Positions 1,802 to 20,100 of a DNA stretch of 64,000 nucleotides are shown here, in pieces. Source of the stretch: Armatimonas rosea (GTDB lineage: Bacteria > Armatimonadota > Armatimonadia > Armatimonadales > Armatimonadaceae); assembly GCF_014202505.1 (NCBI RefSeq), contig NZ_JACHGW010000003.1, positions 434,001-498,000 of the forward strand, written 5' to 3'. Below the pieces are notes generated by a model. The model did not search any database and was not told the DNA's origin. It worked only from the letters and a program-made list of their open reading frames with translations. The position numbers and the translations under genes are program-made. Positions within the stretch are counted from its first letter, which is position 1. Every line of letters starts with the position of its first letter.

Positions 1802-2626
1802 GTGATTACCCAAGACCACCCGCTAGAGCAGCCCACTATGAACGAAGACCACAACGACCTGAGCCTAGAGCGAGTCGCCCCCACGACTAGTGTCACCCTT
1901 GTTCCTGCGGAGGCCCTCCGCCGTGTCCATGTCGCCATCGAGCGCGCCGATGCGGACTTCGCCCAGCTCCACGCCGCCATGGAGTGGCAGCTCGCCGAGA
2001 GCGCCAACTCCAACCACTGGGACCAGGCCGCCGAGCACCTGGAGGACCCGCTTCTGGACACCGACAGTGTCTTTGGGATCACCAGCGCGGTCCCCGGCGA
2101 GGGCAAGACCACGATCGCGATGCACCTTGCCTTTAGTATCGCCCGCAACAGCGGCCGCAAGGTCTGCCTGATCGACTTTGGGATGGGGGACAACGATATC
2201 TGCCGCCGCCTAGGGGTGCGCACCGAGAAGGGCGTGATCGATGTGCTCGAAGGGCGCGACTATGTCATCCGCACCCTCCAGCTCGCCGACTGTGGCGATC
2301 TCTCCGTGATCCCGGCGGGCAAGTTCCCCCGCAACCCGAATAAAGCCGCGCGCTCCCCCGCGGTCACCGAGATTATCGCCGCCGTGCGTGAGATCTACGA
2401 CACCGTGATTGTCGATCTGCCCGCGGTCTCGACCGGCAATGCGCTCCCGATTGCCGAGCACCTCGACAAGGTCATGCTGGTGGTCTGTGCCGGCGCGACT
2501 CCCAAGGATGTCGTGCAGCAGGCCGTGGACCGCCTGGGCCGCCGCCGCGTGCTGGGGGTCGTTCTCAACCGGATGAAGTCGTCGGTGCCGCGCAAGATCC
2601 AGCAGTTCTTCCGAAAGGTCGCGTAA
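1802..2626 (+). CDS. CpsD/CapB-like P-loop ATPase of the polysaccharide co-polymerase
   Basis: A 274-residue cytoplasmic MinD/BY-kinase fold protein. Walker A is SAVPGEGKTT (residues 95-104), the Walker A' region is VCLIDFGMGD (121-130) and Walker B is VIVDLPA (202-208). It follows the Wzz-like gene by 27 bases. In bacterial tyrosine kinases the A' motif normally reads as hydrophobics-DxDxR and the C-terminus carries a tyrosine cluster. Here A' is DFGMGD and the C-terminus (KIQQFFRKVA) has no tyrosines, so autokinase activity is doubtful while ATP binding looks intact. The start is GTG at 1802; an in-frame ATG at 1838 would remove 12 residues and is also possible. Confidence 0.8.
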   Translation: MITQDHPLEQPTMNEDHNDLSLERVAPTTSVTLVPAEALRRVHVAIERADADFAQLHAAMEWQLAESANSNHWDQAAEHLEDPLLDTDSVFGITSAVPGEGKTTIAMHLAFSIARNSGRKVCLIDFGMGDNDICRRLGVRTEKGVIDVLEGRDYVIRTLQLADCGDLSVIPAGKFPRNPNKAARSPAVTEIIAAVREIYDTVIVDLPAVSTGNALPIAEHLDKVMLVVCAGATPKDVVQQAVDRLGRRRVLGVVLNRMKSSVPRKIQQFFRKVA

Positions 2627-2636
2627 GGAACGCTTC

Positions 2637-3950
2637 ATGAGCGAGCTCTACTCCGCATTTACCTACACCTGCCTGACCGCCTGGATGGCGCTCGGGCTGG
2701 CGACTCTGGGCAGCAGTGCCTACCTCGCCGGCCTGATGGGGCGTGCCGCGCTGCGTCAGAAGAAGACCCAGGCCAAGCTCTCCACCAGCGCGGTTCCTCA
2801 GCTGGTGGTGGTGATCCCCGCCCACGACGAAGAAGTCGTGATCGCGGCGACTCTGGAGAGCCTCGCTGCGCAGAGCTATCCCCACACTGCCTACGAGCTT
2901 GTCGTGGTGGCGGACAACTGCACCGATACGACTGCTGCCCTGGCACGTGCTGCCGGCGCGACCGTCCTAGAGCGCACCGACACCGAGCGGCGGGGCAAGG
3001 GCTACGCGCTGGAGTGGGCTATCGAGCAGCTCTGGAGCCGCACCAGCAAGCCCGATGCGGTCGTGATTGTCGATGCCGATACCAAGGCCGCTCCTGACTT
3101 TCTGGAAGTACTTTCTGGAGAGCTCTTTGCGGGAGTTGGCCCCGAGAGCTGGGCCACCCACCGCCGCGCGATCCAGGGCCGCTACGGGGTCCTCAACGGC
3201 GGCGAGTCCTGGCGCGCCGCGCTGATGGAGGGTGCCTTCGAGCTGGTTAACCATGTCAAGCCACTGGGGCGCAGTGTCCAGGGCTTCACGGTCGGGCTCA
3301 AGGGCAATGGGATGGGCTTTACCCGTGCGGTGCTGGAGGCGGCTCCCTGGAGTGGCAATAGCATCACGGAAGACATCGACTACGGGCTGGACCTTCTGCT
3401 CAACCATGGGCTCGTGGTGGGCTACGCCCCCGAGGCGGTGGTGCGGGCGCAGATGCCCAACACGAGCCAGCAGGCAGCATCACAGCGGGCACGGTGGGAG
3501 CGGGGGCGCTACCGCCTGCTCCGTGAGCGCGCCCCCCAGCTCTTTACGGCGGGGATGAAGCGGGGCGACTCCCGCCTGGTCGATGCGGCGCTCGACCTGG
3601 TGATCCCGCCCCTCGCGGAGCTCGCGGCGCTCCATGGTGCCTGGCTTGGGCTCACCGCCCTGTGCTTTAGCATGGGGGTCCTGGTGCCGGTCTGGGTGCT
3701 CCTCTGGCCCCTCTCGCTGGCGCTCTACGGTGCCTATATCTTCGGTGGCCTGAAGGTCTCGGAGGCGCGCCCCGAGGTCTACAGCGCCCTGGTCCGTGCC
3801 CCATTCTACGCGCTCTGGAAGTTTGCCCTCTACGCACTGGTTCGTCTGAAGGGCGGACAAAAGACCAAAAATGGGTCCCTAGAGTGGGTTCGGACCGAGC
3901 GCACACCCATGGGGGACGAGTCTAAGAAGCCCTTGGAGGACGCGGCATGA
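2637..3950 (+). CDS. Processive family 2 glycosyltransferase (BcsA/IcaA-like)
   Basis: A 437-residue membrane glycosyltransferase. An N-terminal membrane segment (about 12-36) is followed by the GT-A domain with all four hallmarks of processive beta-glycan synthases: the UDP-binding Asp in VADNCTD (D93), DAD (D146/D148), TED (residues 244-246) and QRARW as the QxxRW motif (283-287). Two further hydrophobic blocks lie at about 320-370. The QxxRW/TED set is typical of cellulose, chitin and hyaluronan synthases and is not found in ordinary single-transfer GT2 enzymes. This suggests a polymer made of, or containing, beta-linked hexoses. The start at 2637 lies 10 bases after the ATPase stop. Confidence 0.85.
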   Translation: MSELYSAFTYTCLTAWMALGLATLGSSAYLAGLMGRAALRQKKTQAKLSTSAVPQLVVVIPAHDEEVVIAATLESLAAQSYPHTAYELVVVADNCTDTTAALARAAGATVLERTDTERRGKGYALEWAIEQLWSRTSKPDAVVIVDADTKAAPDFLEVLSGELFAGVGPESWATHRRAIQGRYGVLNGGESWRAALMEGAFELVNHVKPLGRSVQGFTVGLKGNGMGFTRAVLEAAPWSGNSITEDIDYGLDLLLNHGLVVGYAPEAVVRAQMPNTSQQAASQRARWERGRYRLLRERAPQLFTAGMKRGDSRLVDAALDLVIPPLAELAALHGAWLGLTALCFSMGVLVPVWVLLWPLSLALYGAYIFGGLKVSEARPEVYSALVRAPFYALWKFALYALVRLKGGQKTKNGSLEWVRTERTPMGDESKKPLEDAA

Positions 3951-4084
3951 ACCTGGTGATCGGCGCGGTCTTTGGGGCGACCCTGATGGGGCTATTTGTC
4001 CCGCGCTGGCAGCTCAAGCACGGGCTGATCCTGGCGGGCTGGATGTGTCTGGTTCTGGTGGTGTTTTACTTTAAGAATCGGTAG
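3947..4084 (+). CDS. 45-residue two-helix membrane peptide
   Basis: This small frame starts with the ATG inside the ATGA overlap that ends the GT2 gene and stops with TAG at 4082-4084. It encodes 45 residues with two hydrophobic stretches (about 3-19 and 26-42) separated by a short basic stretch (RWQLKH), so it should form a helical hairpin in the membrane. The start/stop overlap and position between the synthase and the glucanase argue that it is a real translationally coupled gene. No family is recognised. A role as a small accessory subunit of the glycan synthase is possible but only inferred from position. Confidence 0.6.
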   Translation: MNLVIGAVFGATLMGLFVPRWQLKHGLILAGWMCLVLVVFYFKNR

Positions 4085-4099
4085 TAGGTAGAAGCTGAG

Positions 4100-6475
4100 A
4101 TGATCAATGCTATGTCCACGACACCTGTACGAGAGCTAACAGAAGAGGAGCGCCGCCGCCGTGCCAAGGCACGCGCCGCGCGCCGCCGCCAAGAAGAGGC
4201 CGCCCAGAAACAGCGGCTTCGGCGCGAGCGGATCGCCTTCGCGGTCCTAGGGAGTGTCGGCAGTGTGGCCGTGCTGGCCGGGGTCTGGGGCATCAAGCGC
4301 GTCAAAGAGGCGGGCGGGCTCCGGGAGAGCGCCAAGGGCCTGGTCAAGAGCTTCGCCACGACCACGGGAATTGGCCCCAAGGGCCTGATCCCCGTGGCCC
4401 CCACCGAGCGCGCCGACGAGCCGATCGTGGTCTACCGCGACGGCATGGGGGAGGGCTGGGACGACTGGTCCTGGGCGACCCGGGATAAGGCATCCGCGGC
4501 GATGGCGGCCAATGGGATCAATGGGATCGCCATGACCCTCAAGGGCAGCGAGGGGCTCTACTTCCACCACACCGCGTTTCCCGCCGATGGCTACGGCTCA
4601 CTAGAGTTTCTCTACAAAGGCGCGCCCGACACGGTGATGGCGACGGTCTTCGACGAGTACGCAAAGCCGCGCCGCCAGCTCAAGCTGGGGAGCTACGTGG
4701 TCAATGGGGCGGTCGGGCTCAAAGACGGCTGGCAGAAGATCAGCATCCCTCTGAAGGCGATGGGGGTGGGGGTCGGGGATAAGATCAGCGGGGTCGTGCT
4801 CCAGTGCGCGATGCCATCGGCGAGCGGTCAGGTGGGCTTCGACGATATCTCGCTCATGCCCGATACTAGCCTCCCCGAGGCACCCAAGGCGCTGACGATT
4901 CCGGTCGCTGTGGACACGCAGGCGGGCAAGCACGCGATCAGCCCGACGATCTACGGGGTCGCCCACGCCAGCAAGCAGGAGGCCGAGGCACTGGGCGCGA
5001 CCCTCAACCGCTGGGGCGGCAACCCCAACTCGCGCCACAACTGGGTGAGCAATCTCTGGAACTCCGGGAGCGACTGGGAGTTTCGCAACCACGCGGGCGA
5101 GAAGCCCCAGACCAAGGCGGGCGGTGCCGCCGATGCCTTTGTCCAGGACAACCGTGCGCTGGGGATCACGAGCTACATGACCGTCCCGACCCTGGGCTGG
5201 GTGGCCAAGAACGGCAATATCCAGGTCAAGTCCGAGAATGTTCCCTGGAACACCGGCCCCGGTGTCTCGGGCTGCGACGGCCCCATTGCGGGCTACGACC
5301 CGACCGAGAACCGCAACCGCACCAGTGTCCGCTCCGTGGCGCGCAAGAACAAGCCCTTTGAGCTCTACCCCGCGCCCGGTGACACGGTCTACCAGGACGA
5401 GTGGATCAACCACCTGGTCAAGCTCCATGGCAATGGCGCGGGCAGCGGGGTGAAGTACTACGCGATGGACAACGAGCCCGATCTCTGGTCCCACACCCAC
5501 CGCGATGTGCACCCGGCGCAGATGGGCTACGACGATACCTTCAAGAACTTTACGGACTACGCCACGGCGGTGAAGGCGGTCGATCCCACGGCGCTGGTCG
5601 CGGGGCCGGCGGTCTCGGGCTGGATCAGCTACTTCTACTCCGCGCTGGACCGGGGCACCGACGACTTCCGCACGGGGGCGGACCGCCGCGCCCACGGCGA
5701 CACGCCCTTTATTCCCTGGTTCCTGCAGCAGGCCAAGGCCTTCGATGCCAAGCGCGGCAAGCGGACCCTCGATGTGCTGGATATCCACTACTACCCCCAG
5801 GGTGAGAATATCTACAGCGATGCCAAGGACCCTGCGCTCCGGGCGCTGCGGATCCGCTCGGTGCGGAGCTTGTGGGACAAGGACTACCGCGATGAGTCCT
5901 GGATCGCCAATACCGGCGATGGGCCGAGTGTGCGGCTGATCCCGCGCATGAAGGACTGGATCGCGCAGTGCTACCCCGGAACCAAGCTGGCGATCGGGGA
6001 GTGGAGCTTTGGCGCGGAGGGCGATATCAGCGGGGGGCTCGCCGCTGCCGAGGCGCTGGGGGTCTTTGGGCGCGAGGGGGTCGATGTGGCCTGCTTCTGG
6101 ACCCGGCCCAAGCTCTTTACGCCCGCTGCGGCCGCCTTCCAGCTCTTCCGGCGCCCTGAGCCAGGGCAGGCGGGCTTTGGCGATAGGGGCTGTCAGAGCA
6201 CGTACGGCCAGGGCGAGCGCCTCGCGGTCTTCTCCGCCACGGAGAGCAAGACGGGCGCACTGACCCTGGTGCTGATCAACAAGACCCCCAAGGCGACCAT
6301 CACCGTGCCTCTGAGTATCACGGGCCACGACGGCGGAGCGAGCAGGCTCTGGCGCTTCTCCGCGGAGAAGCCCAACCAGCTGAGCGCCGAGGTGGGCCCC
6401 AAGGTGAGCGGAGGGAAGGCCAGTATCAGCCTGCCCCCGTACTCCGCGACCCTCGTGCGGATAGGGGGGAAGTAG
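4100..6475 (+). CDS. Membrane-anchored glycoside hydrolase family 44 (endo-beta-glucanase-like)
   Basis: A 791-residue protein with a very basic cytoplasmic N-terminus (about 10-45), one membrane segment (about 48-66) and an extracytoplasmic part. A beta-rich region at about 100-255 looks like a carbohydrate-binding jelly-roll. The GH44 barrel follows at about 270-700, with GGNPNSRHNW, the acid/base motif MDNEP (E459) and the nucleophile motif IGEWSFG (E634), and then a C-terminal beta domain. GH44 enzymes cleave beta-1,4-glucan, xyloglucan or related polymers. Placed directly after a BcsA-like synthase, it most likely trims or edits the exported polymer, as BcsZ (GH8) does in cellulose operons. 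An alternative start is ATG 4112. Confidence 0.85.
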   Translation: MINAMSTTPVRELTEEERRRRAKARAARRRQEEAAQKQRLRRERIAFAVLGSVGSVAVLAGVWGIKRVKEAGGLRESAKGLVKSFATTTGIGPKGLIPVAPTERADEPIVVYRDGMGEGWDDWSWATRDKASAAMAANGINGIAMTLKGSEGLYFHHTAFPADGYGSLEFLYKGAPDTVMATVFDEYAKPRRQLKLGSYVVNGAVGLKDGWQKISIPLKAMGVGVGDKISGVVLQCAMPSASGQVGFDDISLMPDTSLPEAPKALTIPVAVDTQAGKHAISPTIYGVAHASKQEAEALGATLNRWGGNPNSRHNWVSNLWNSGSDWEFRNHAGEKPQTKAGGAADAFVQDNRALGITSYMTVPTLGWVAKNGNIQVKSENVPWNTGPGVSGCDGPIAGYDPTENRNRTSVRSVARKNKPFELYPAPGDTVYQDEWINHLVKLHGNGAGSGVKYYAMDNEPDLWSHTHRDVHPAQMGYDDTFKNFTDYATAVKAVDPTALVAGPAVSGWISYFYSALDRGTDDFRTGADRRAHGDTPFIPWFLQQAKAFDAKRGKRTLDVLDIHYYPQGENIYSDAKDPALRALRIRSVRSLWDKDYRDESWIANTGDGPSVRLIPRMKDWIAQCYPGTKLAIGEWSFGAEGDISGGLAAAEALGVFGREGVDVACFWTRPKLFTPAAAAFQLFRRPEPGQAGFGDRGCQSTYGQGERLAVFSATESKTGALTLVLINKTPKATITVPLSITGHDGGASRLWRFSAEKPNQLSAEVGPKVSGGKASISLPPYSATLVRIGGK

Positions 6476-6476
6476 C

Positions 6477-8171
6477 TTGGCCAGTCGTCACGAGCGGGCC
6501 TTCCGCGCGTCCAATGTCCTCGGGCTCCGTGAGGTAGAGCAGCGGCAGCGCCGGCAGCAGGCAATCCTGGGAGGGATCGCCGGGCTGCTAGCGCTGCTTG
6601 CTGGCATCTCCTATGTCCTGGTCGAGCCCACCACCTTGCTCGTGCCGATTCTCTTGCTGAGCGCGACCCTGCTTCCGGCGGTCTTCTGGTACTACCCGCG
6701 CATGGCTCTCTTTGGTATCTTTGGCTGCGCGATCCTGTTTGAGGTCTTCCAGACGGTCCCCAAGGAGCAGGGCCTCACCGATGCCGTGCCGTTCTTCTGG
6801 AACATCAACACGATGTTCGATAAGTTCCTAGGAAGCAACCCCAAGGCCGCCCCGATCAACTTCTTCGAGCTCATCCTGATTGTCTTCTCGGGCATCATGC
6901 TCCTGAGCTTTGCGACCCGGCAGCGCACCCAGCTTCGTGTTGGCTCGCTCTTCTGGCCGATTGCGATCTACCTGGGCTTTGTGGTGGTCGGGTTTCTCAA
7001 TGGGATGTCCACCGGAGGAAACCTCAACGAGGCGCTCCAGGAGACCCGAGCGCAGTTCTACTTTGGCATCATGTATGTCATGGCGGTGAATGCGATCCGG
7101 GACCGGAAGCATGTCGATAGCCTGATCTGGCTGAGCGTGATCTGTATCGCCTTCAAGGCCTTTAACTACATCTACCGGCACTTTGCGCTCTTCCATGCGG
7201 AGATTCAGGACCAGGGAGTGGGCTCGCACGAGGAGGCATTCTTCTTCATGTCCTTTGTGATGCTGCTCTCGGTGCTCTCGTTCGCCAAGGTGCAGCAGAA
7301 GCTCCAGGTGCTGATGTGGACCCTGCTGCCCTTTGTCTTCTTTGCCAACCTGACCACCAACCGCCGCACCGCCTACGCCGCGCTGACAATCGCGCTGCCG
7401 ATCTTGCTGCTGGCGGCCTACAAGGGCTTTCCCAAGGCACGGCGCTCGGTGCTGACCGTGCTGGTGAGTATCGCGGTGCTCTTCCCGCCGTACTTTATCG
7501 CCTTCAAGGACAAGGATGGCGCGATTGCCGGGCCAGCGCGTGCGATCAACTCCGCGATCTCGCCCAACCAGCGCGACTCGGACTCGGACACCTACCGCCG
7601 CAACGAGAACTACGACCTGATGTTCACGATGCGGGCTACGCCGGTGAGCCAGGCGATTGGCTACGGCTACGGCAAGCGCTTCTACACCCCCGCCAAGCTG
7701 GACTCGATCAAGGATATCTACGCCTGGTACAACCTCCTGCCCCACAACCAGATTCTCTGGGTCTGGATGCGCCTGGGGACCCTGGGTTTTCTCGCTTTCT
7801 GGGGGATGGTCTGCTCGATCCTGGTCTATGCCTGTCGGGTGATCCGCTTCCAGGAAAGGGAGACTCTGAAGCCAAAACCGGGGGATATCTATCCGCGGCT
7901 CGTGGCGTTCTATGCCCTGATTGAGGTGGTTCTGCTGATGGTCTTTGGCCTGCTGGACCTGCAGCTCTCCAACTTCCGGGACATGGTCTTTGTGGCGGTC
8001 TGGGTGGGGGCGCTGGCGGGCCTAGCCCCCGGCGCGATGGCCCTCAACGACCCCGAGAAGCGTGTCCGTCGCCCCGGAGTGAGCGCCGCGCCGCGCCGCC
8101 GCCTGCCCGAGGAGCCCCGCCCCCAGCGTCGCCCACGGCCCCAGCCCACGCGCCCCCGGAGCACCCGATGA
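6477..8171 (+). CDS. O-antigen polymerase/ligase-like membrane protein (Wzy-like)
   Basis: A 564-residue polytopic membrane protein with roughly ten hydrophobic segments from about residue 25 to 520 and a basic, proline-rich cytoplasmic tail (about 525-564). A large hydrophilic loop at about 345-430 contains the RRNENYDLMF stretch followed by YGYGKRF. This layout matches the Wzy_C/O-antigen ligase superfamily, which polymerises or transfers undecaprenyl-linked glycans in the periplasm. The start is TTG at 6477, one base after the glucanase stop, so translation is probably coupled. Its last four bases overlap the flippase start (ATGA at 8168). Sequence alone does not separate polymerase from ligase; the operon favours polymerase. 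Confidence 0.75.
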   Translation: MASRHERAFRASNVLGLREVEQRQRRQQAILGGIAGLLALLAGISYVLVEPTTLLVPILLLSATLLPAVFWYYPRMALFGIFGCAILFEVFQTVPKEQGLTDAVPFFWNINTMFDKFLGSNPKAAPINFFELILIVFSGIMLLSFATRQRTQLRVGSLFWPIAIYLGFVVVGFLNGMSTGGNLNEALQETRAQFYFGIMYVMAVNAIRDRKHVDSLIWLSVICIAFKAFNYIYRHFALFHAEIQDQGVGSHEEAFFFMSFVMLLSVLSFAKVQQKLQVLMWTLLPFVFFANLTTNRRTAYAALTIALPILLLAAYKGFPKARRSVLTVLVSIAVLFPPYFIAFKDKDGAIAGPARAINSAISPNQRDSDSDTYRRNENYDLMFTMRATPVSQAIGYGYGKRFYTPAKLDSIKDIYAWYNLLPHNQILWVWMRLGTLGFLAFWGMVCSILVYACRVIRFQERETLKPKPGDIYPRLVAFYALIEVVLLMVFGLLDLQLSNFRDMVFVAVWVGALAGLAPGAMALNDPEKRVRRPGVSAAPRRRLPEEPRPQRRPRPQPTRPRSTR

Positions 8172-9625
8172 GCGGCATGAGCGCCCGCGTGGCGAAGAAT
8201 ATTGTCGGCACCCTCGGGACCCAGCTCCTGACCTTTGCCATGGCCTTCCTGGTCAACCTCTACCTGCCGCGCTATCTCGGGCCGGAGGGGACCGGCAAGC
8301 TCGCCATTATCGCCAGCTGGGTGACTGTCCTAGGGGTCTTTGTGCCGCTGGGGACATCGCAGGTGATCGTCAAGGAGGTCGCCCGGGACCGCACGAAGGC
8401 AGGCGCACTCTTGGCCAACGGCCTGGCCCTGCGCCTCCTGATGGGGATCACCGCCGTGCCGATCGCCTACCTGGTTGCCTGGGCGCTGGGCTACTCGCGG
8501 GAGATGTTGATCCTGCTACTGGTGAGCGTCCCCGGCATGGTGGTCTTTGTGCTCAGCGATGTCTTTGCGACCATCTACCAGGGCCGTGAGGAGCTGGCCC
8601 GCTTCAACCGGGCGACCCTGCTGGATAAAGTGGCCTACGGGCTCGCGGTCCTGCTCCTGGTCGCCTTCAAGGCGCCGCTCTGGATGATCGCGGGGGTGGC
8701 GATCCTCTCGGGGCTGCTGACCTTTACGTTCTATGCGGTGGGGCTGCGGGATGTCCTCAAGACCCTAACGCTGCCCCGCTGGGCGGACCTGAAGTCGCTG
8801 GCGGTGGCGAGCCTGCCGTTTATGGGGCTGCTGATCTTCCGCACCCTCTACGGCCAGACCGATCCGATCGTTCTTGGGGCCGTCGCCACCAAGGTCGAGG
8901 CGGGCTGGTACGCAACCGCCTTTAAGCTGGTGGGCTCGGCGATGTTCTTTCCGATGGCGCTGGTCTTTGCGCTCCTACCCACCCTCTCGCGCCTGCACGG
9001 CAGTGGGGACCACGCGGGCTTCCTCTCGCTGGCGCGCCGGGCACTGGATATCTCCCTCTTGGTGGGGCTTCCCATCTCCGCCGCCGCGATCTTTCTGGCG
9101 AAGCCGATTGTCCAGCTTCTCTATGGCCCGAGCTTTGCCGGTGCCGCTCCCGTGCTCGCCGTGGGGGGCTTTGGGATGCTGCTATACTTCGTGACGGCGG
9201 TGCTGGGCCTGCTAGTGATCTCGCTGGACCGGCAGCTCGTCCAGACCCGGAGTGCGCTGATCGCCTGTCTCTTTGGCATCCCGCTCTGCATTCTCTTCTC
9301 CTGGGGCGGCCACCAGCTCTGGGGCAACGCCGCGCTGGGGGCGATTGTCTCCGATGTGCTGGTCGAGGTCTATCTGGGCGTGGTCTACTGGAAGGCGCTC
9401 CCCGCCGAGCTCTTCGACACGGCACTGGTCTCGCGCGCGGTGCGCTACACGCTCTCGGCGCTGCTGATGGTACTGGGGCTCTGGCTCTCGCTAGGGACCA
9501 GTCTGGGGCTCTGGGGCATCCTTCCCTGCATGGTTGTCTACCTCGCCGCCTGCGTGCTTCTGCGCTGCTGGAGCCCCGCCGAGCTCCGCGACCTGCGCGG
9601 GATGCTCGTCCGCCGCCCCGCGTAA
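8168..9625 (+). CDS. Lipid-linked oligosaccharide flippase (Wzx-like, MOP superfamily)
   Basis: A 485-residue integral membrane protein with about 12-14 hydrophobic segments and the N-terminal pattern of polysaccharide_synt/MATE-like flippases: NIVGTLGTQLLTFAMAF, then NLYLPRYLGPEGTGKLA and, later, YGQTDPIVLGA in TM7. Wzx proteins move undecaprenyl-PP-linked repeat units across the inner membrane. The gene starts within the ATGA overlap at the end of the polymerase gene, so the two are translated together. It is the last gene before a fold-back repeat (9644-9798), which may separate two transcription units of the cluster. Confidence 0.85.
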   Translation: MSGMSARVAKNIVGTLGTQLLTFAMAFLVNLYLPRYLGPEGTGKLAIIASWVTVLGVFVPLGTSQVIVKEVARDRTKAGALLANGLALRLLMGITAVPIAYLVAWALGYSREMLILLLVSVPGMVVFVLSDVFATIYQGREELARFNRATLLDKVAYGLAVLLLVAFKAPLWMIAGVAILSGLLTFTFYAVGLRDVLKTLTLPRWADLKSLAVASLPFMGLLIFRTLYGQTDPIVLGAVATKVEAGWYATAFKLVGSAMFFPMALVFALLPTLSRLHGSGDHAGFLSLARRALDISLLVGLPISAAAIFLAKPIVQLLYGPSFAGAAPVLAVGGFGMLLYFVTAVLGLLVISLDRQLVQTRSALIACLFGIPLCILFSWGGHQLWGNAALGAIVSDVLVEVYLGVVYWKALPAELFDTALVSRAVRYTLSALLMVLGLWLSLGTSLGLWGILPCMVVYLAACVLLRCWSPAELRDLRGMLVRRPA

Positions 9626-9643
9626 GACGGATCGCCCGTTTTA

Positions 9644-9798
9644 GATCGCTCCCATGAACGGGAGCGTCTTACAGTCCTCGTGCCTCGGACACAAAGGGCT
9701 TCGCCCATCCCGATCCGCGTTAACGCGGGTATGGCCGAAGGCCTTCGTGTCGGAGCCTGCGACGACAGCAAGACGCCCCCCTCCAACGGGGGCGAGCC
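9644..9798. repeat. Fold-back dispersed repeat, copy R1
   Basis: A roughly 155-base imperfect palindrome between the flippase and the first acyltransferase. Each end is a GC hairpin (CGCTCCC/GGGAGCG at 9647-9666; CGCCCCC/GGGGGCG near 9774-9794). The two arms carry related inverted sequences (CCTCGGACACAAAGGGCTTC and its mirror GAAGGCCTTCGTGTCGGAG) around a small central palindrome (CCCGATCCGCGTTAACGCGGG region, 9709-9729). The same element occurs in inverse orientation at 34858-35014 and as a half copy at 38197-38278. The rest of the 242-base gap (9799-9867) shows no gene. Confidence 0.85.
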
Positions 9799-9867
9799 AA
9801 ACCGAAGCAATCGAAAAAGTTTAGTAACTTCGTCACGTTGGCACAAAACTTGTAAGACTAAAGCAAC

Positions 9868-10392
9868 ATGACTCTCACACAACTGATCCGTAGCGATATC
9901 GCCGCGTGGGCGAGTATCTGGAAGAGCAAGCCCAGCGCGGCGTTTGTCTTTCACTACTGCGGGCTCCGGGCCACGGTCCTCTACCGGATCAGCCATGCGC
10001 TCTGGAAGAGCCGTGTGCCGCTTCTTCCGGGGATGCTCTTTCGGCTCAATATCACCCTGCATGGCTTCGATGTCCCCCCGGCGACCGCCATTGGCCCGGG
10101 CCTCTATGTCCCGCATCCCGTGGGCACCGTGCTCTCCGCGGAGCGCATCGGGGCCAATGTCACCCTCATCTCCGGGATCACAGTGGGGATGCGCGGTGAG
10201 GGCGAGTTCCCCATTATCGAGGATGGCGCGTTTATCGGGGCGGGGGCGCGGATCTTGGGCAAGGTGACGGTCGGGGCGGGGGCGAAGATCGGGGCCAATG
10301 CGGTGGTCCTCAAGGATGTTCCTGCAGGCGCGACCGCAGTCGGGGTGCCGGCACGGATTCTCGGGAGCTCGTCGGAGAAGGTAGCCGCATGA
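9868..10392 (+). CDS. Serine O-acetyltransferase-like hexapeptide acyltransferase
   Basis: A 174-residue protein related to CysE/colanic-acid acetyltransferases. A helical N-terminus (about 1-60) is followed by a left-handed beta-helix from about residue 70, with hexapeptide turns (IGPGLYVPHPVGTVL, IGANVTLISGITVG, GAFIGAGARILGKVTVGAGAKIGANAVV). It uses an acyl-CoA donor; in this setting the acceptor is more likely a sugar of the exopolysaccharide than free serine, and the residues that separate the two were not tested. It begins the second half of the cluster; the 75 bases before it contain TTGGCA (9838) and TAAGAC (9853), which do not make a convincing promoter. Its stop overlaps the next start by four bases. 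Confidence 0.75.
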   Translation: MTLTQLIRSDIAAWASIWKSKPSAAFVFHYCGLRATVLYRISHALWKSRVPLLPGMLFRLNITLHGFDVPPATAIGPGLYVPHPVGTVLSAERIGANVTLISGITVGMRGEGEFPIIEDGAFIGAGARILGKVTVGAGAKIGANAVVLKDVPAGATAVGVPARILGSSSEKVAA

Positions 10393-10922
10393 GACACAAG
10401 CTACAGACACTCTGGGTGCTCGTCACCAGCCTGGTCAAGACCCGAAACTGCACGCAGCGCGGCAAGCTTATCCGGGTCTGGGGGCAGCTCCAGGTCAGCG
10501 GCGATGTGCGCCTCGGGGAGCGGGTGCGGGTCCGTGCCACACACGTGCCTGTCGAGCTGGCCGCCGGACCGGGCGCGTGTATCACGATTGGGGAGAGTAG
10601 CTTTATCAACTCCGGGGTCTCGATTGGAGCCCAGGAGCAGGTGACGGTCGGTAAGAACTGCGCGATTGGCAACTACACCCTCATCATGGACTCCGACTTC
10701 CACAACCCCTACGACCACACGCTCCCTGGTGCCGCCGCGCCGGTGGTGCTCGAAGACGATGTCTGGCTGGGGGCGCGGGTGACCGTGCTCAAGGGGGTTC
10801 GTATCGGGCGCGGAGCCGTGGTCGCTGCGGGAGCCGTGGTGACACGCGATGTCGCTCCCTATACCTTGGTAGGCGGTGTCCCCGCACGCGTGATTCGCAC
10901 GCTGGAGAAACTGGACCGATGA
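10389..10922 (+). CDS. Hexapeptide (LbH) acetyltransferase, WbbJ/maltose-acetyltransferase type
   Basis: A 177-residue cytoplasmic acyltransferase with a left-handed beta-helix from about residue 50 to 165. The catalytic-type histidine lies in MDSDFHNPYDH (about residues 104-114), as in NodL/LacA/WbbJ-like O-acetyltransferases. The C-terminal segment DVAPYTLVGGVPARVIRTL is the family signature. It is second in a run of three acyltransferases, coupled by ATGA overlaps at both ends (10389 and 10919). It probably decorates an exopolysaccharide or its lipid-linked repeat unit; the substrate cannot be read from sequence. Confidence 0.8.
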   Translation: MRHKLQTLWVLVTSLVKTRNCTQRGKLIRVWGQLQVSGDVRLGERVRVRATHVPVELAAGPGACITIGESSFINSGVSIGAQEQVTVGKNCAIGNYTLIMDSDFHNPYDHTLPGAAAPVVLEDDVWLGARVTVLKGVRIGRGAVVAAGAVVTRDVAPYTLVGGVPARVIRTLEKLDR

Positions 10923-11521
10923 TCGAGAAGACAATGCCACAGCGCGAGCCCGTGCGAAACCGGGTCTTGACCGCCCTTGCGGAGGAGCTGGGAGTCACGA
11001 GCGTCCCCTGGCGCCTCGTGGTAGCCCAGACCTGCCTGCGTGGCATCCCCGAGGACATGGCAGGCCGCTGGCGTGCGCTGGTCTACCGCCGCGCCGGGAT
11101 TCAGATCGGTCCCCGAACCCTGATCCGTGGCATCTTGCGCCTGCGCGGGGGCCGCGATGCGGTGCGGAACCTGACTATCGGGAGCGACTGCCTGATCTAC
11201 CCGCCGGGCTCGATCGACTGCTGCGCGCCGGTTCGGGTGGGAAACAACGTGACCTTTGGCCCCCATGTCACCATTGTCACGGGGACCCATGAGCTGGTCG
11301 ATCCCTGCCACCGTGCGGGGGCGCTGGTGCCCAAGCCGGTGGTGATCGAAGACGGTGCCTGGCTTTGTTTAGGGGTGATTATCCTCCCCGGCGTGACGGT
11401 TGGTAAGGGCGCGGTGGTGGCGGCGGGCTCGGTGGTGACCCGCGATGTGCCGCCCCACACGCTGGTCGGGGGGAGCCCGGCACGAGTGATCCGGTCACTG
11501 GAGACGGAGGTACGGGTATGA
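10919..11521 (+). CDS. Hexapeptide (LbH) acetyltransferase
   Basis: A 200-residue protein with a helical N-terminal extension (about 1-60) and a left-handed beta-helix (about 65-190). The catalytic-type histidine sits in TGTHELVDPCHRAG (about 121-134), and the end reads DVPPHTLVGGSPARVIRSL. It differs from its upstream neighbour in the N-terminal helices but shares the fold and the C-terminal signature, so the two could be old paralogues acting on different positions. ATGA overlaps tie it to the previous acyltransferase and to the GT4 gene (11518). Confidence 0.8.
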   Translation: MIEKTMPQREPVRNRVLTALAEELGVTSVPWRLVVAQTCLRGIPEDMAGRWRALVYRRAGIQIGPRTLIRGILRLRGGRDAVRNLTIGSDCLIYPPGSIDCCAPVRVGNNVTFGPHVTIVTGTHELVDPCHRAGALVPKPVVIEDGAWLCLGVIILPGVTVGKGAVVAAGSVVTRDVPPHTLVGGSPARVIRSLETEVRV

Positions 11522-12762
11522 AGCGTGTTTTGTTCCTACAGTCGCAGACCTTCTTTGGTGCGGACTCGGCGATCCATGCCCAGCTCATGCAGCACCTCAA
11601 CCACGATGAGGTCGAGGTCCATGTGGCGTGTAACCGACGTCAGGATGCAAATGTCGCGATGACGGCGCTGGAGCGCATCCAGCAGATCAAGGGGATCAAG
11701 GTCCGGCCCACGGAGTTCGGCCCGACGGTCTTCTCCCGGCCCCTCTGGGAGCGGCTCTGGATGTCGCTGACCCAGGGGCCGCTGGTTCCCTTGCACCTGC
11801 TCGCGCTGGCTGCCTACATCAAGCGGGAGGGGATCCAGGTGATCCATGGCACCGAGAAGCCGCGTGATGCCTTCTATGGTGTCCTGCTGGGCAAGCTCAC
11901 CGGTGCAAAGAGCGTGATTCACATGCATGTCCGCTACGCCAACTGGCTCAGCCCGACCGTCCGCTGGGCCCTGCGCAACGCCGATGCCGTGGTGGGGGTC
12001 TCCGCGTTTGTCTCCAAGACCGTGGTTGAGGCCGGGATTCCCGCCGAGCGCGTGCACACCGTGGTCAATGCGCTGGACACCTACGACTCGACCTGGGAGC
12101 CCCGCACCGATGCCGCCGAGGTCCGGGCAGAGTTTGGGATCGCCCCCGATGCCGTACTGATCGGGGTCTGCTCGCGCCTCTTCCGCTGGAAGGGCCAGAA
12201 GGAGCTGATCGAGGCGGTCTCACGGCTGCTCCCTCAAGTGCCGCAGGTCCACCTGATGATTGTCGGGGAGGACGACTCCCGCGCCAACCCGGGCGGCGGG
12301 AGCTTCTGCGAGGAGCTCAAGGCCCAGGTCGCCCAGCTCGGGATGACCGATAAAGTCACCTTCACCGGCTTCCGCCGCGATATCCCCCGCCTGATGAATG
12401 CCTTTGATATCTACGCCATGCCCAGCTTTGAGGAGCCCCTTGGCATGGTCTATCTCGAGGCGATGGCGCTGGGAAAGCCGGTCGTGGCCTACAACAATGG
12501 GGGGGTCCCCGAGGTTGTGGAAAATCACCTAACGGGTTTCTTGACAGAACCCTACGATATAGACGCTTTGGCACACTCGTTGCTTACATTAGTCAGTAAT
12601 CCGGGACGACGAAAACAGATGGGAGCCGCCGCGCGAGAGCGGGTGCTCCGAGAGAGTACGCCGGAGCAGATGTGCTCGCGGATGGAGCTGGTCTACCGTG
12701 CGGTCCTCACCGGCTGCCGAGAGACTGAGGCGATCCCCGCAGTCAAGCTGGAAGCGCAGTAA
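11518..12762 (+). CDS. Family 4 glycosyltransferase (GT-B)
   Basis: A 414-residue retaining GT-B enzyme. The N-terminal Rossmann half begins KRVLFLQSQTFFGADSAIHAQL. The C-terminal half carries the donor-binding signatures GVCSRLFRWKGQKELIEAV (about 218-236) and the E-x7-E motif in MPSFEEPLGMVYLEAMALGKPVVA (about 301-324), followed by GGVPEVV. It would add one sugar from an NDP-sugar to the lipid-linked repeat unit in the cytoplasm. The start overlaps the preceding stop by four bases. Base composition falls slightly towards AT near 12520-12600 without breaking the frame. Confidence 0.85.
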   Translation: MKRVLFLQSQTFFGADSAIHAQLMQHLNHDEVEVHVACNRRQDANVAMTALERIQQIKGIKVRPTEFGPTVFSRPLWERLWMSLTQGPLVPLHLLALAAYIKREGIQVIHGTEKPRDAFYGVLLGKLTGAKSVIHMHVRYANWLSPTVRWALRNADAVVGVSAFVSKTVVEAGIPAERVHTVVNALDTYDSTWEPRTDAAEVRAEFGIAPDAVLIGVCSRLFRWKGQKELIEAVSRLLPQVPQVHLMIVGEDDSRANPGGGSFCEELKAQVAQLGMTDKVTFTGFRRDIPRLMNAFDIYAMPSFEEPLGMVYLEAMALGKPVVAYNNGGVPEVVENHLTGFLTEPYDIDALAHSLLTLVSNPGRRKQMGAAARERVLRESTPEQMCSRMELVYRAVLTGCRETEAIPAVKLEAQ

Positions 12763-12770
12763 GGCGAGAG

Positions 12771-13841
12771 ATGAGAAGTGCAATGCCGTTTCTAAGTGTG
12801 GTCATTCCAACCTACAACCGCTGTGAGAGCCTGCGAGTAACCCTGGAGGCACTCAAGCGTCAGGAGCCGGTTACCGGCGGCTTCGAGGTGGTCGTGGTCT
12901 CTGATGGGAGCACGGACGGTACGGACGCGCTCCTGGTGGGCTGGCTGGCGGCACGGCTGCCCTTCACGCTCCGGGTGATCCGGCAGGAAAACGCCGGACC
13001 GGCACGGGCACGCAACCGCGGCGTCCAAGAGGCGACGGGCGAGGTCATTGTCTTTCTGGATGACGATGTCGAACCGCAGATGGGCTGCCTACAAGTGCAC
13101 GCCCAGCGCCACCTGGCAGAGAAAGACTTAGTCCTGATCGGCCCGATGTCGCCCGATCCGGAGCGCCGGCGTGTCGAGCCGGTCTGGATCGCTTGGGAGC
13201 ACGCGATGCTCCAGAAGCAGTACAGCTCCTGGAAGAGCGGGACCTGGGCGGCACACGAGTGCGGTCCTCATAACTTCTACACCGGCAATGCATCGGTGCG
13301 GCGCGCGTTTATCCTGGCGGTGGGGGGCTTCGACGAAGGCTTCACGCGCCAAGAGGATGTCGAGCTGGCGACTCGGATGGAGCGGACCTGCGGTGTCTAC
13401 TTCCGCTTTGAGCCCGCGGCGGCGGCCTTTCACCGGCCCCACCGTAGCTTTGAGTCCTGGCTGCGCGTCCCCTATGCCTATGGCAAGCTCGATGTGATCC
13501 GTGCACAGCGTGGCGATGCGAGCTGGGAGGTCGTGCGGCACGGGTATGCGTCACGCCAGAAGGCGACACGTCTTCTCGCGGACCTGGCACTTCCTCGCAC
13601 GGGGGTGGGAGAAGCGCTGCGTGGTCTGCTCCGCATAGGAGCAGAGGCGGTCTATGCGCTCCCGCTGGGGGGAGCGCGGCGCGCGGGCCTGGGAGCCCTG
13701 AGCGCCCTCTACAATCTTCATTATCTAGAGGGGGCACGAGACGAGCTGGGATCGTGGGATGCCCTCCATCAGGTGTTGCGTGCAAGCACTACTTCGGCCT
13801 ACGGGGATTCGAAAACAGAAGTCAAAGAGAGAGCGGCATGA
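12771..13841 (+). CDS. Family 2 glycosyltransferase
   Basis: A 356-residue GT-A glycosyltransferase. The start of the fold is PFLSVVIPTYNRCESL, the nucleotide-binding Asp is in VVSDGSTDGTD (about residue 47) and the DxD-type motif is FLDDDVEP (about 97-104), followed by the GGFDEGFTRQEDVELATRM acceptor region. It lacks the QxxRW motif of the cluster's other GT2, so it is expected to make single transfers. A hydrophobic stretch near 285-305 may touch the membrane. The ATG at 12771 lies 8 bases after the GT4 stop; an alternative ATG at 12783 starts directly at the conserved fold. Its stop overlaps the next gene's ATG. Confidence 0.82.
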   Translation: MRSAMPFLSVVIPTYNRCESLRVTLEALKRQEPVTGGFEVVVVSDGSTDGTDALLVGWLAARLPFTLRVIRQENAGPARARNRGVQEATGEVIVFLDDDVEPQMGCLQVHAQRHLAEKDLVLIGPMSPDPERRRVEPVWIAWEHAMLQKQYSSWKSGTWAAHECGPHNFYTGNASVRRAFILAVGGFDEGFTRQEDVELATRMERTCGVYFRFEPAAAAFHRPHRSFESWLRVPYAYGKLDVIRAQRGDASWEVVRHGYASRQKATRLLADLALPRTGVGEALRGLLRIGAEAVYALPLGGARRAGLGALSALYNLHYLEGARDELGSWDALHQVLRASTTSAYGDSKTEVKERAA

Positions 13842-17162: not shown

Positions 17163-20100
17163 CTACCGGATTTCCAGTACCTCACCCGCCGACTCCGCGC
17201 GCACGTTTGCGCTGTACATCGGGGTGACTGCGCTGGGGAGAGCATGGCTCTTTCCCCGTGTCTGCGCCCGTAGATGGTACTCGTAGACATGCTTGCCCGG
17301 TGCCAGGTGCCGTGCAAAGAGCGCGACCCGGTCGTCCCGAACATCGATATGCGAGTACCAGAAATTCCAGCTACCGTAGGTATCGTCTTCCTCAAGTGTC
17401 CCACGGGCATTGGGCTCAAACCCGGCGGGGAAGCGGTCCTCCAGCAAGACAAACTCCTGCGCCTGAGTCGCCTCGACAATCAGCCGGACGCGCACGGTCT
17501 CCCCCTGCGGGAAGCTCGTGCTGGCTGCCTCGGGGAGGAGGCCCTTGGGCCCCGATGCCAGCCGGACATACTCGCGGCGTATTTTGAGCCCCTTGGCATC
17601 CAGCGGCGCGAGTGTCTCCGTGCGAGTGGTCTGGCGCAGAGTGGCGATTGCATAGCCGCCCGTCGCCTGGAGCGTATTGGATCTGGGCTGGAGCGCGGTG
17701 GCGGGGATAGTCGCCTCCCGTAGCTTGCCCCGTGGCGCGAGGGGGATCGGCTTGCCATTGAGGGTCAAAGACGGTGCCACGCTCGCGTTGTTGGACTCTG
17801 GCAGGAGGCAGAGGGTGGAGATCACGAAGGCGGTGTCTCGGGTGTTGCCGAAGTAGCTCTCGGTCTGGGTGGAGAGCAGGTAGGTGGTCGCCTTGGAGAG
17901 CACGGGGCTCTGCGGGAGGGTGGTGAGCAGGGCGCGCAGGGCTAGGGCCGTGGTCGTGCGCTCGCTCCCATCGCCCCAGTGGGCAAAGGCACCGTCGACC
18001 ACCGCTTTTTTCTCCAGTGCCGTCGCGTAGGCAAGGGGATCGAGGCCCGCGCTCTTGCAGAACAGGACGAGCCAGGCGAGGGTATCGGCGCGCTTGGCGC
18101 TCGGCTCGCCGAAGCGGTGGAGCAGGGCGGGGGCGAGTGCGCGGGCGCGGGCGGGATCGACCCGGCTGGCGGCGTAGAGTGCGAAGGCGGTGTCAGGGAC
18201 GGGGGTAAGGGGGGCTTCCAACAGTGCCCAGAGCGGCTTGGTGCCTCGGGTGAGGAGCTCGTCGGGGACCGCATAGCCCGCATCACGCGCCTCGGCGAGG
18301 CCCCAGACCGCGTAGGCGGTGTGCCAGAGATCAAAGTTGTCTCTGTACCACCAGCCCCAGCCCTTATCGCCCTGCTGCATCCCGGCGAGGTGCAATACCC
18401 CCTCCGCGACCAGGGCTTTGTCGGCGACACCCGCTGCGATCAGCGGGACAAAGCGGCTGACCGTCTGCTCGACACAGCCATAGGGGTATTTTCGGAGGTA
18501 GTCGGTCGCCTCGGTGATGGTTGTCTTTAGGCTGGGAGCGATCCGCACGGTCAGCGACGAGCGCTCGGCAATCGCGCCTTCGGGGACGGTGAGAGCGAGC
18601 GCACCCTGCGGATCGAAGCCGTAGTTGGTGACTGTCTCCCGGGCAAAAGGGCGCACGGTGAGCGGGAGCTTGACCCCATCGGTGAGGCGCGTCTCGGTCC
18701 AGCCCTCCAGGATCAGCTCCGTGGACTCGGGCATCCCTCCCGGAACCGTCCAGCTCCAGGTCGCCTCCCCGATCGTCCCCGTGGCCACCGTCAAGGTCTT
18801 CTCCGGCTCGCTCAGACCGGCGGCCTTGAGACGCAGGTGCGCGGTCTGCGACTGCCCACTGTTGTTGTGGACGAGGCCGGTGAGCTTTACCTGGTCGCCC
18901 TCCACCACAAAGCGGGGCATGTCCAGGCGCACGAAGAAGGGGCGGTTCACCAGGATCTTTGCCCGTGCGTAGCCGACTGCAGTCTGGTCGCTCACGGCGT
19001 GCGCCACGGCCCGCCAGGTGGTGAGGTTGTCGGGGAGGGGAAAGGTCACGGTCGCCTTTCCCTCGGCGTTGGTGCGCACCTCGGGGTTCCAGTAGGCGGT
19101 ATCGACAAACTTCTCGCGGGTCTTGACCTTGATGCCGTCCTTGCCATCGCCTGCCAGGTAGAGAATCTCAAACGAGTGCCGCGTGCGGACATCGCTGGTG
19201 CGGTGCGGGTAGAACGCCTTCCGAAGCGCCTTGGAATCGTCTTCCTTGAGCGCGTAGATAGCCTCATCGGCGACCGAGAGCGCGAGCTCGGTGGCGACCG
19301 GCTTGCCCGCGCTATCGGTCACGGCGACCTCGAAGCGGGCGGGCTGGCCGGGCTCGTACTGGGGCTTGTCGGGGGTGAGGGCGATACTCAGGGTCTTGCG
19401 GGGCAGGGTGACACGCAGGGGGGTCTCGGTCTGCTGGAGCTGCTTGTGGGCGACATAGACCGCGCCGAGCGAGACATTGGGGCCGTACTCTTCCAGGACA
19501 GGAACCGCGATCCGGGTGACACTCTGGCGAACGGGAACCGCGATTGCCTTGTAGAGCCGCTCGCCCTCGATCGTGAGCAGTACGGTCTGGCCGGTCTCCG
19601 CCGCGCCAATCACGACCTGTGCGGTCTCGCCGGGGGCGTAGCTGCGCTTGTCGGTGGCGAGGGTCAGGCCCGCGAGCCGGGTGCTGTCCTCGGCGACCTC
19701 ATCGCGTGGGGTCACCCAGAGGGTCTGGTGGGTCTGGGCCTCGCGGCCGGCGCTATCGCGTGCGGTGGCTATCAGATCGATATCGCCGCTCTTCGGGAGC
19801 GTGATCGTGAGGGTCGTGCGCCCGTCCTCGCCGCTCTTTCCGGTGAGCGGGGCCATGACCGCGACCGGGCCTTTCTTCTCCTGGTGCTCGACTCGCAGGG
19901 TGACCGGGGCGTTGGCGACCGCCTTGCCCTCGTGGTCGCGGACCGTGATAAAGAGGCGGGTAGGCTGTCCCGCGCGGGCGAGATAGCCCTCGGGGGTGAG
20001 AGCCACTTTGACATCGGCGGCGGTGACACTCACATCCGCGGACTGCTCCACCTCCCGCTCGGCGTTGTCGGTGACATAGGCGGTGAGCTTGTAGCGCTCG

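Follow-up and report, generated by a model that had tools for sequence, protein, structure and literature searches.

The locus examined here raises the question of how a cellulose synthase-like glycosyltransferase and a neighboring glucanase-like enzyme are related within an exopolysaccharide gene cluster. The original prediction had described a BcsA-like GT2, a small membrane peptide, and a membrane-anchored GH44 enzyme that appears to take the place of the hydrolase BcsZ, so that the synthase-dependent and Wzx/Wzy routes would be mixed. The window, that is, the whole stretch of 64,000 nt analyzed from Armatimonas rosea (NZ_JACHGW010000003.1), contains the core of a Wzx/Wzy exopolysaccharide cluster, and all three open reading frames of interest were found at the positions claimed. 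All features given below lie on the forward (+) strand.

The window begins with the C-terminal end of an OPX (Wza/EpsY-type) export protein (positions 1 to 207), whose gene starts upstream (L062:18301-19707, Poly_export and SLBB). This is followed by a Wzz-like polysaccharide co-polymerase (PCP) without a kinase domain (230 to 1774; TIGR03007, E = 3.3e-22; PF02706, 22.7 bits, below the cut-off) and a stand-alone BY-kinase-like protein (1802 to 2626; TIGR03018, E = 1.1e-27), in which a motif scan located Walker A and B and no Tyr-rich tail. The EpsU-type GT2 (2637 to 3950), the 45-aa two-helix membrane peptide (3947 to 4084), and the 791-aa EpsB-type GH44 protein (4100 to 6475) come next. Directly downstream of the GH44 gene are the Wzy polymerase (6477 to 8171; PF04932; NF041870 Wzy_EPS, E = 1.2e-18) and the Wzx flippase (8168 to 9625; PF01943; NF041871 Wzx_EPS, E = 1.5e-21), and then hexapeptide acyltransferases (9868 to 10392, 10389 to 10922, and 10919 to 11521; domain or family matches for the first and last), a GT4 glycosyltransferase (11518 to 12762; domain or family match), and an EpsD-type GT2 (12771 to 13841; NF041875, 435.4 bits, above the curated cut-off of 370). 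Just upstream of the window are OPX, an initiating phosphoglycosyltransferase, and WecG. One locus therefore holds an initiating transferase, Wzx, Wzy, PCP, and OPX, and the expected Wzx/Wzy-type surroundings, with a PCP, BY-kinase-like protein, Wzy, Wzx, acetyltransferases, and glycosyltransferases, are indeed present.

The GT2 had been credited with the full D, DxD, TED, and QxxRW set of processive synthases. All four motifs were located (D97 in NCTD, DAD at residues 146 to 148, TED at 244 to 246, and QRARW at 283 to 287) and were invariant in a 14-row alignment of EpsU-type GT2s from Armatimonadota. This set also occurs in nonprocessive glycosyltransferases, such as ceramide glucosyltransferase, and is thus no proof of processivity. 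The GT2 scored 274.3 bits against EpsU (NF041865, E = 1.6e-81) over nearly the whole profile, versus 26.1 bits against the cellulose synthase CelA (TIGR03030). Both scores are below the curated cut-offs, which are 700 and 699 bits, respectively, so that EpsU is the nearest named family, with membership uncertified, and the CelA/BcsA family is not reached. The structural model of the GT2 (pLDDT 86) places one membrane helix at the N-terminus and about three at the C-terminus, whereas BcsA has eight. The top Foldseek matches of this model included BcsA (TMq 0.60 to 0.63) and hyaluronan synthase, and the model also superposed on a mannosyltransferase. Processive polymerization by the GT2 is compatible with its motifs and predicted fold, neither of which is diagnostic.

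The GH44 protein matched PF12891 (E = 2.2e-60, 204.8 bits), and its catalytic domain (residues 266 to 788; 4895 to 6463) aligned to solved GH44 structures (3fw6/3ii1; E = 3.2e-102 for 3fw6). As had been claimed, both catalytic glutamates are present and in register with these structures, namely, E459 in the MDNEP motif (5474 to 5476; acid/base by homology) and E634 in the GEW motif (5999 to 6001; nucleophile by homology). The pair was kept in every cluster-linked homologue, and no homologue lacking the catalytic residues was found in this position. Against EpsB (NF041873, E = 1.8e-105), residues 108 to 788 matched profile positions 3 to 666 of 671 with 353.8 bits, below the equivalog cut-off of 1250 bits, thereby indicating a homologue and not the named equivalog. 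Hydropathy also supported the type II-like anchor of the original prediction, with a predicted membrane segment at residues 45 to 63 (4232 to 4288; hydropathy 2.07) after a strongly basic N-terminus (charge +8). By hydropathy only, a membrane anchor or signal-like segment was also predicted at the N-terminus of the other cluster GH44 homologues; the one exception was L043, whose start codon was probably mis-called. Between the anchor and the catalytic part lies a beta-sandwich domain (about residues 108 to 255; 4421 to 4864) resembling CBM8, CBM29, CBM30, and CBM11, with an invariant GW-DWSW motif in the alignment. The model of this domain (pLDDT 84) matched a CBM8 structure in Foldseek (7t7y, E = 7.8e-10), which suggests a CBM8-like, beta-glycan-binding domain. 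The full catalytic domain and both glutamates are shared with the GH44 cellulases CelM2 (3fw6), CelJ, and Paenibacillus Cel44, and the protein may act as an endo-beta-1,4-glucanase or xyloglucanase. It differs from these cellulases in its predicted inner-membrane anchor, its N-terminal CBM8-like domain, and its place in a separate, biosynthesis-linked clade. In a plasmid search with the GH44 protein, a single Paenibacillus match was obtained (33% identity, catalytic domain only).

Since most members of GH44 are cellulases or xyloglucanases, the protein could also be a secreted cellulase for nutrient scavenging that lies in the cluster by chance, and both the CBM8-like domain and a second GH44 gene elsewhere in the genome, unlinked to the cluster, would fit this explanation. 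In the tree, however, a single clade (99/96 support) held all the cluster-linked GH44s and the EpsB-type copies from contig ends and split clusters, whereas the 33 Armatimonadota GH44s without such linkage all fell outside it. In several family-level groups, the cluster GH44s are also consistently located ahead of Wzy, and the N-terminal domain is common to M. xanthus EpsB. The tree and the synteny led us to reject a stray cellulase, which we consider very improbable.

Gene order was compared in 19 Armatimonadota genomes carrying the cluster GH44 clade; GT2 matches in G201 to G203, divergent EpsU-like proteins with other surroundings, were omitted from the counts. The gene downstream of GH44 was Wzy in all 17 genomes that could be read, including those with the GT2 at another place, and in the remaining 2 of the 19 a contig edge followed GH44, with a Wzy-like start. 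The GT2 was directly upstream of GH44, with only the peptide between them, in just 5 of the 19 genomes, and it was on a different contig or block in 3. The predicted order of GT2, small peptide, and GH44 was therefore found in five genomes but is not the rule. These counts show that the hydrolase goes with the polymerase, an arrangement like that of PslG in Psl, and that it is not tied to the GT2 in the way that BcsZ is tied to BcsA. Five otherwise similar EpsU clusters (G015, G016, G025, G030, and G043) have no such GH44, which is thus not obligatory.

These results bear on the BcsA/BcsZ explanation, in which the GT2 would be a processive cellulose-like synthase and GH44 its dedicated hydrolase, with two routes combined in one Wzx/Wzy cluster. 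A BcsA/BcsZ operon likewise pairs a membrane GT2 bearing TED and QxxRW with an endo-beta-1,4-glucanase (putative here), and the invariant motifs, the matches to BcsA and hyaluronan synthase, the type II-like anchor, and the adjacency in five genomes all agree with it. However, the GT2 is shorter than BcsA, nearer to EpsU, and has fewer modeled helices, its motif set is common to nonprocessive enzymes, the hydrolase is a GH44 and not a GH8 enzyme and keeps company with Wzy, and neither BcsB nor a full-length CelA was found in the genome. On the basis of the family scores, the gene order, and the absence of BcsB, we rejected this as the main explanation and regard it as improbable. A catalytically intact, anchored GH44 as a conserved part of the Wzx/Wzy cluster is retained from the original prediction, whereas the equation of GT2 and GH44 with BcsA and BcsZ, including the substitution for BcsZ, is not. 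The proposed mixing of routes is likewise not supported: the Myxococcus xanthus pathway, which has homologues of both proteins, was assigned to the Wzx/Wzy type, and synthase-dependent homologues were not found there (PMC7484181).

The open reading frame of the 45-aa peptide overlaps the GT2 stop codon by 4 nt (ATGA), recurs at the equivalent place in other genomes, and had a dN/dS of 0.39, 0.06, and 0.02 for the three pairs that were informative. The peptide is thus a real gene under purifying selection, and its predicted coupling to the GT2 gene was borne out. Its family (roughly 44 aa, two helices) occurred in 29 of 35 EpsU genomes and 0 of 256 others and has no Pfam or NCBIfam assignment. 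Positional recurrence, dN/dS, and this restriction ruled out a chance open reading frame. What is new at this locus is the peptide, a conserved and previously unnamed membrane family. PgaD and IcaD are small two-helix membrane proteins co-encoded with the GT2s PgaC and IcaA. The peptide resembles them by analogy and differs in its length of only about 44 aa, its Wzx/Wzy setting, and having only candidate partners. GT2 and peptide might likewise form a two-component enzyme, processive or not, in which the peptide provides two helices that the GT2 lacks. The peptide mostly overlaps the GT2 or sits within about 2 kb of it, is restricted to EpsU genomes, and stays beside the GT2 when GH44 and Wzy are encoded apart from it (L056 and L057), and the modeled GT2 has fewer membrane helices than known synthases do. 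In G017, however, the peptide accompanies PCP, BY-kinase, and GH44, and the GT2 is found on a separate contig (L106 and L108); in G053, the peptide gene separates GH44 from Wzy. These arrangements make PCP or Wzy as likely a partner as the GT2, and an exclusive tie to the GT2 was not upheld; we consider the two-component enzyme rather unlikely. It could coexist with the Wzx/Wzy explanation given below.

Altogether, the region quite likely forms the central part of an exopolysaccharide cluster of the Wzx/Wzy-dependent type that is homologous to M. xanthus eps, with a GH44 that would trim beside Wzy and the peptide as a putative inner-membrane subunit. Assembly of the repeat unit would begin with the phosphoglycosyltransferase acting on the lipid carrier; on the cytoplasmic side, the EpsU-type GT2 and other glycosyltransferases would attach sugars singly. 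Wzx would then flip the unit, Wzy would polymerize it in the periplasm under the control of PCP and the BY-kinase-like protein, and OPX would export the polymer. GH44, N-terminally anchored in the inner membrane beside Wzy and carrying the CBM8-like beta-glycan-binding domain, may cleave beta-1,4-linked stretches of nascent or mislocalized polymer, as PslG does for Psl, for length control or periplasm clearing. Within the inner-membrane machinery, the 45-aa peptide would serve as a small subunit with two helices. The analysis shows the gene content and its homology, the intact catalytic residues, the linkage of GH44 to Wzy, and the conservation of the peptide with its restriction to EpsU genomes; we infer the enzymatic roles, the substrate, and the peptide partner. 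Supporting family matches are EpsU, EpsB, and EpsD, of which EpsD alone is above its cut-off. Most family scores at the locus, including EpsU and EpsB, are below the curated equivalog cut-offs.

The cluster is a standard Wzx/Wzy-type slime-polysaccharide cluster closely resembling that of M. xanthus; this link rests on NCBIfam models and published papers, and the genome comparison was made within Armatimonadota. The eps genes (EpsU/MXAN_7422, EpsB/MXAN_7450, EpsD, Wzx/Wzy, EpsV, and EpsY) share the GT2 and GH44 families, the Wzx/Wzy logic, a PCP without a kinase domain, and an EpsD-type glycosyltransferase, the one above cut-off here. In contrast, M. xanthus has epsU in one sub-cluster and epsB in another, whereas GT2, peptide, GH44, and Wzy are contiguous here; the BY-kinase-like partner has retained Walker A and B in this locus but is a pseudokinase (EcpK) in M. 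xanthus; and the peptide has no description in the M. xanthus eps literature found. In M. xanthus, EpsU abundance depends on the PCP EpsV (PMC12004946), and reports on the importance of epsB for EPS conflict (PMC7484181 versus PMC4877007). In Pseudomonas aeruginosa, a group-1-capsule-like pathway includes PslG, an endo-beta-glucanase associated with the inner membrane, whose activity aids Psl production (PMC6813494, PMC11912335). GH44 resembles PslG as a membrane-associated endo-beta-glucanase (predicted here) in a Wzx/Wzy-type cluster and differs from it in family (GH39 for PslG) and gene order. To our knowledge, PslG has no CBM8-like domain. A literature search on GH44 within Wzx/Wzy clusters and on Armatimonadota Wzy returned nothing relevant.

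The EpsU/EpsB-type exopolysaccharide pathway, so far studied only in myxobacteria in the literature found, thus also occurs in Armatimonadota, and the genetic coupling of the hydrolase to Wzy makes the disputed role of EpsB/PslG-type hydrolases testable by comparison. The analysis also uncovered a small conserved membrane protein that standard family-model annotation would leave unnamed. Speculatively, and rather improbably, this peptide might be an essential small Wzx/Wzy subunit that joins the EpsU-type GT2, in a PgaC/PgaD-like two-component manner, with PCP, Wzy, and GH44 in one complex; if true, it would represent a class of subunit undescribed for Wzx/Wzy pathways.

The three open reading frames of the original prediction, a GT2 (window 2637-3950, + strand), a 45-aa peptide (3947-4084, +), and a GH44 (4100-6475, +), were present and are followed by Wzy (6477-8171, +). 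The GT2 (437 aa) carried the expected D/DxD/TED/QxxRW set as D97, DAD (146-148), TED (244-246), and QRARW (283-287), which was invariant across 14 aligned homologues except at the x of QRxRW. Processive GT2s carry this motif set, but so do nonprocessive enzymes such as ceramide glucosyltransferase. The predicted model of the GT2 (pLDDT 86) showed one long N-terminal helix, a GT-A domain, and approximately three C-terminal membrane or interface helices, and Foldseek returned a Pyrobaculum mannosyltransferase, BcsA, and hyaluronan synthases at near-equal E-values. The modeled fold is compatible with a BcsA/HAS-like scaffold, from which processivity does not follow.

The original prediction held that synthase-dependent and Wzx/Wzy routes were mixed in this cluster. 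The top NCBIfam model for the GT2 was EpsU of the Myxococcus xanthus EPS pathway (274 bits, versus 26 bits for CelA), and the Wzy, Wzx, and EpsD models of that pathway matched its neighbors, with EpsD exceeding the curated cutoff. Upstream of the window are the export protein OPX, an initiating phosphoglycosyltransferase (Bac_transf, 217 bits), and WecG. The gene set is a complete Wzx/Wzy pathway, and neither BcsB nor full-length CelA was found in the window's genome (6.3-Mb assembly); on these grounds, mixing is unneeded and disfavored. A synthase is also not required for a beta-1,4-glucan backbone, because the cellulosic backbone of xanthan is made by Wzx/Wzy.

Of 291 Armatimonadota genomes, 35 had an EpsU-type GT2 and 70 had a GH44 that matched the EpsB model, a count that takes in unlinked paralogues. 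The neighborhoods of the EpsU genes and of EpsB-type GH44s were then read. The usual order starts with a polysaccharide co-polymerase (PCP), a BY-kinase-like protein, and the GT2, followed by peptide-GH44-Wzy-Wzx in the window's own family (f1) and its order-mate (f2), or by WecG, peptide, acetyltransferase, GH44, and Wzy, with varying details, in three further families (f7 to f9). In an Armatimonadetes MAG, the order was unchanged, with a GH44 80% identical to that of the window and PCP, BY-kinase, GT2, peptide, and Wzy 58 to 82% identical. The predicted GT2-peptide-GH44 order was found in 5 of the 19 genomes with an EpsB-clade GH44 (G000, G008, G014, G020, and G022); WecG, mostly plus other genes, separated GT2 and GH44 in eight, and the GT2 was in a different contig or block in three (G017, G023, and G024); spacing was left unclassed in three. 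Wzy directly followed the GH44 in all 17 genomes with a readable downstream gene, and in the other two (G026 and G053) the contig stops downstream of the GH44 within an ORF having a Wzy-like start. Five EpsU clusters (G015, G016, G025, G030, and G043) had GT2, peptide, and Wzy without an EpsB-clade GH44, and no copy was found elsewhere in these genomes. Because Wzy followed in 17/17, GT2 adjacency was limited to 5/19, and five clusters lacked the GH44, it is GH44 and Wzy that form the stable pair, rather than GT2 and GH44, and the GH44 does not partner the GT2 as BcsZ does BcsA.

WecG/TagA/CpsF genes lie directly 3' of the GT2 in f7 to f9 (loci L042-L044, L047, L049-L052, and L054), mostly ahead of the peptide; in the window's genome, WecG is encoded on the opposite strand, upstream and next to the initiating transferase. 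In G024 (L056 and L104) and G023 (L057 and L105), the cluster is split into transferase-PCP-BYK-GT2-peptide, with a MutS2-like next gene by eye, and GH44-Wzy-Wzx elsewhere. Stand-alone BY-kinase-like proteins (window 1802-2626; L042-L059) kept Walker A (GEGKTT) but no longer have the Tyr-rich tail, and their C-terminus is a conserved amphipathic stretch (P-WLQ-YFS or a similar sequence); they may represent a stage between true BY kinases and EcpK, the Myxococcus pseudokinase. A large bacterial alpha-2-macroglobulin-like protein (MG2, A2M, and bMG10) with a carboxypeptidase-regulatory-like N-terminal domain lies at window 17163-21824 (-). Upstream of the window, two large, mutually similar proteins (L062:4135-6999 and 9448-12264, both -) showed, by eye from translation, an adenylate-cyclase-like N-terminus and an NB-ARC/TPR-like remainder.

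Residues 266-788 of the GH44 (791 aa; PF12891) aligned to GH44 enzymes of solved structure (3fw6, E = 3.2e-102), and the motifs of the two catalytic glutamates were in register; the predicted E459 and E634 were kept in all cluster-linked copies. The refuting outcome named in the original prediction, homologues in this position that lack catalytic residues, was therefore not observed. The proposed anchor was also recovered, as a predicted hydrophobic segment (residues 45-63) preceded by a very basic N-terminus. The top NCBIfam model was EpsB (354 bits), whose match spans residues 108-788 and therefore includes the domain ahead of the catalytic part. This domain (residues ~108-255) contains an invariant GW-DWSW motif, and its model (pLDDT 84) was nearest to CBM8 (7t7y, E = 7.8e-10), then CBM29, and later CBM30 and CBM11, families of beta-glucan and mannan binders. 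In a tree of 52 catalytic domains, 13 cluster-linked and 6 EpsB-type GH44s formed one group, split from all 33 unlinked Armatimonadota GH44s (99/96 support), among which the second copy of the window's genome fell.

The peptide ORF starts within the GT2 stop codon (ATGA). Family members are two-helix membrane peptides of 44 to 46 aa, except for two of 52 and 86 aa; all have a pair of hydrophobic stretches and a basic loop in the middle, and one G is invariant. A profile built from 22 members detected the peptide (E < 1e-8) in 29 genomes, all within the 35 EpsU genomes, and in 0/256 others; two further weak matches sit within long ORFs. The dN/dS values of three informative pairs were 0.06, 0.02, and 0.39. 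Pfam and NCBIfam gave no family assignment, with only isolated single-member weak matches. The family loci (window 3947-4084, L042, L044-L059, L106, L109, and L112) are all EpsU-type clusters. In f1, f2, and G043, the peptide comes immediately after the GT2 and overlaps it by 4 nt or nearly does so; it follows WecG in f7 to f9 and lies between GH44 and Wzy in G053. The GT2, PCP, and Wzy are all candidate partners, since the peptide remains with the GT2 in clusters that lack the GH44 or have both it and Wzy at another place (L056-L059), but with PCP, BY-kinase, and GH44 in G017, whose GT2 is on a different contig.

Most likely, the lipid-linked repeat unit would receive a sugar from the EpsU-type GT2 and then be polymerized by Wzy, and trimming or clearance of beta-1,4-linked polymer next to Wzy would fall to the anchored GH44, aided by its CBM8-like domain; we infer the enzyme activity, substrate, and polymer. 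For trimming, PslG, the GH39 of Pseudomonas aeruginosa Psl, is the working precedent: this inner-membrane-associated endo-beta-glucanase interacts with the Wzc-like PslE and adds to yield, and the need for it in Psl production is disputed (PMC6813494, PMC11912335). The M. xanthus eps locus was characterized as Wzx/Wzy dependent, with EpsU among five GTs and no synthase-dependent homologues found by the authors (PMC7484181). Reports on EpsB there differ: one paper calls it important, though not essential, and the other unimportant (PMC7484181, PMC4877007). EpsU levels drop strongly without the PCP EpsV (PMC12004946), thereby tying EpsU-type GT2s to the Wzx/Wzy complex. The cluster arrangement in Armatimonas rosea is a phylum-level relative of this known pathway, and its new element is the conserved small membrane protein.
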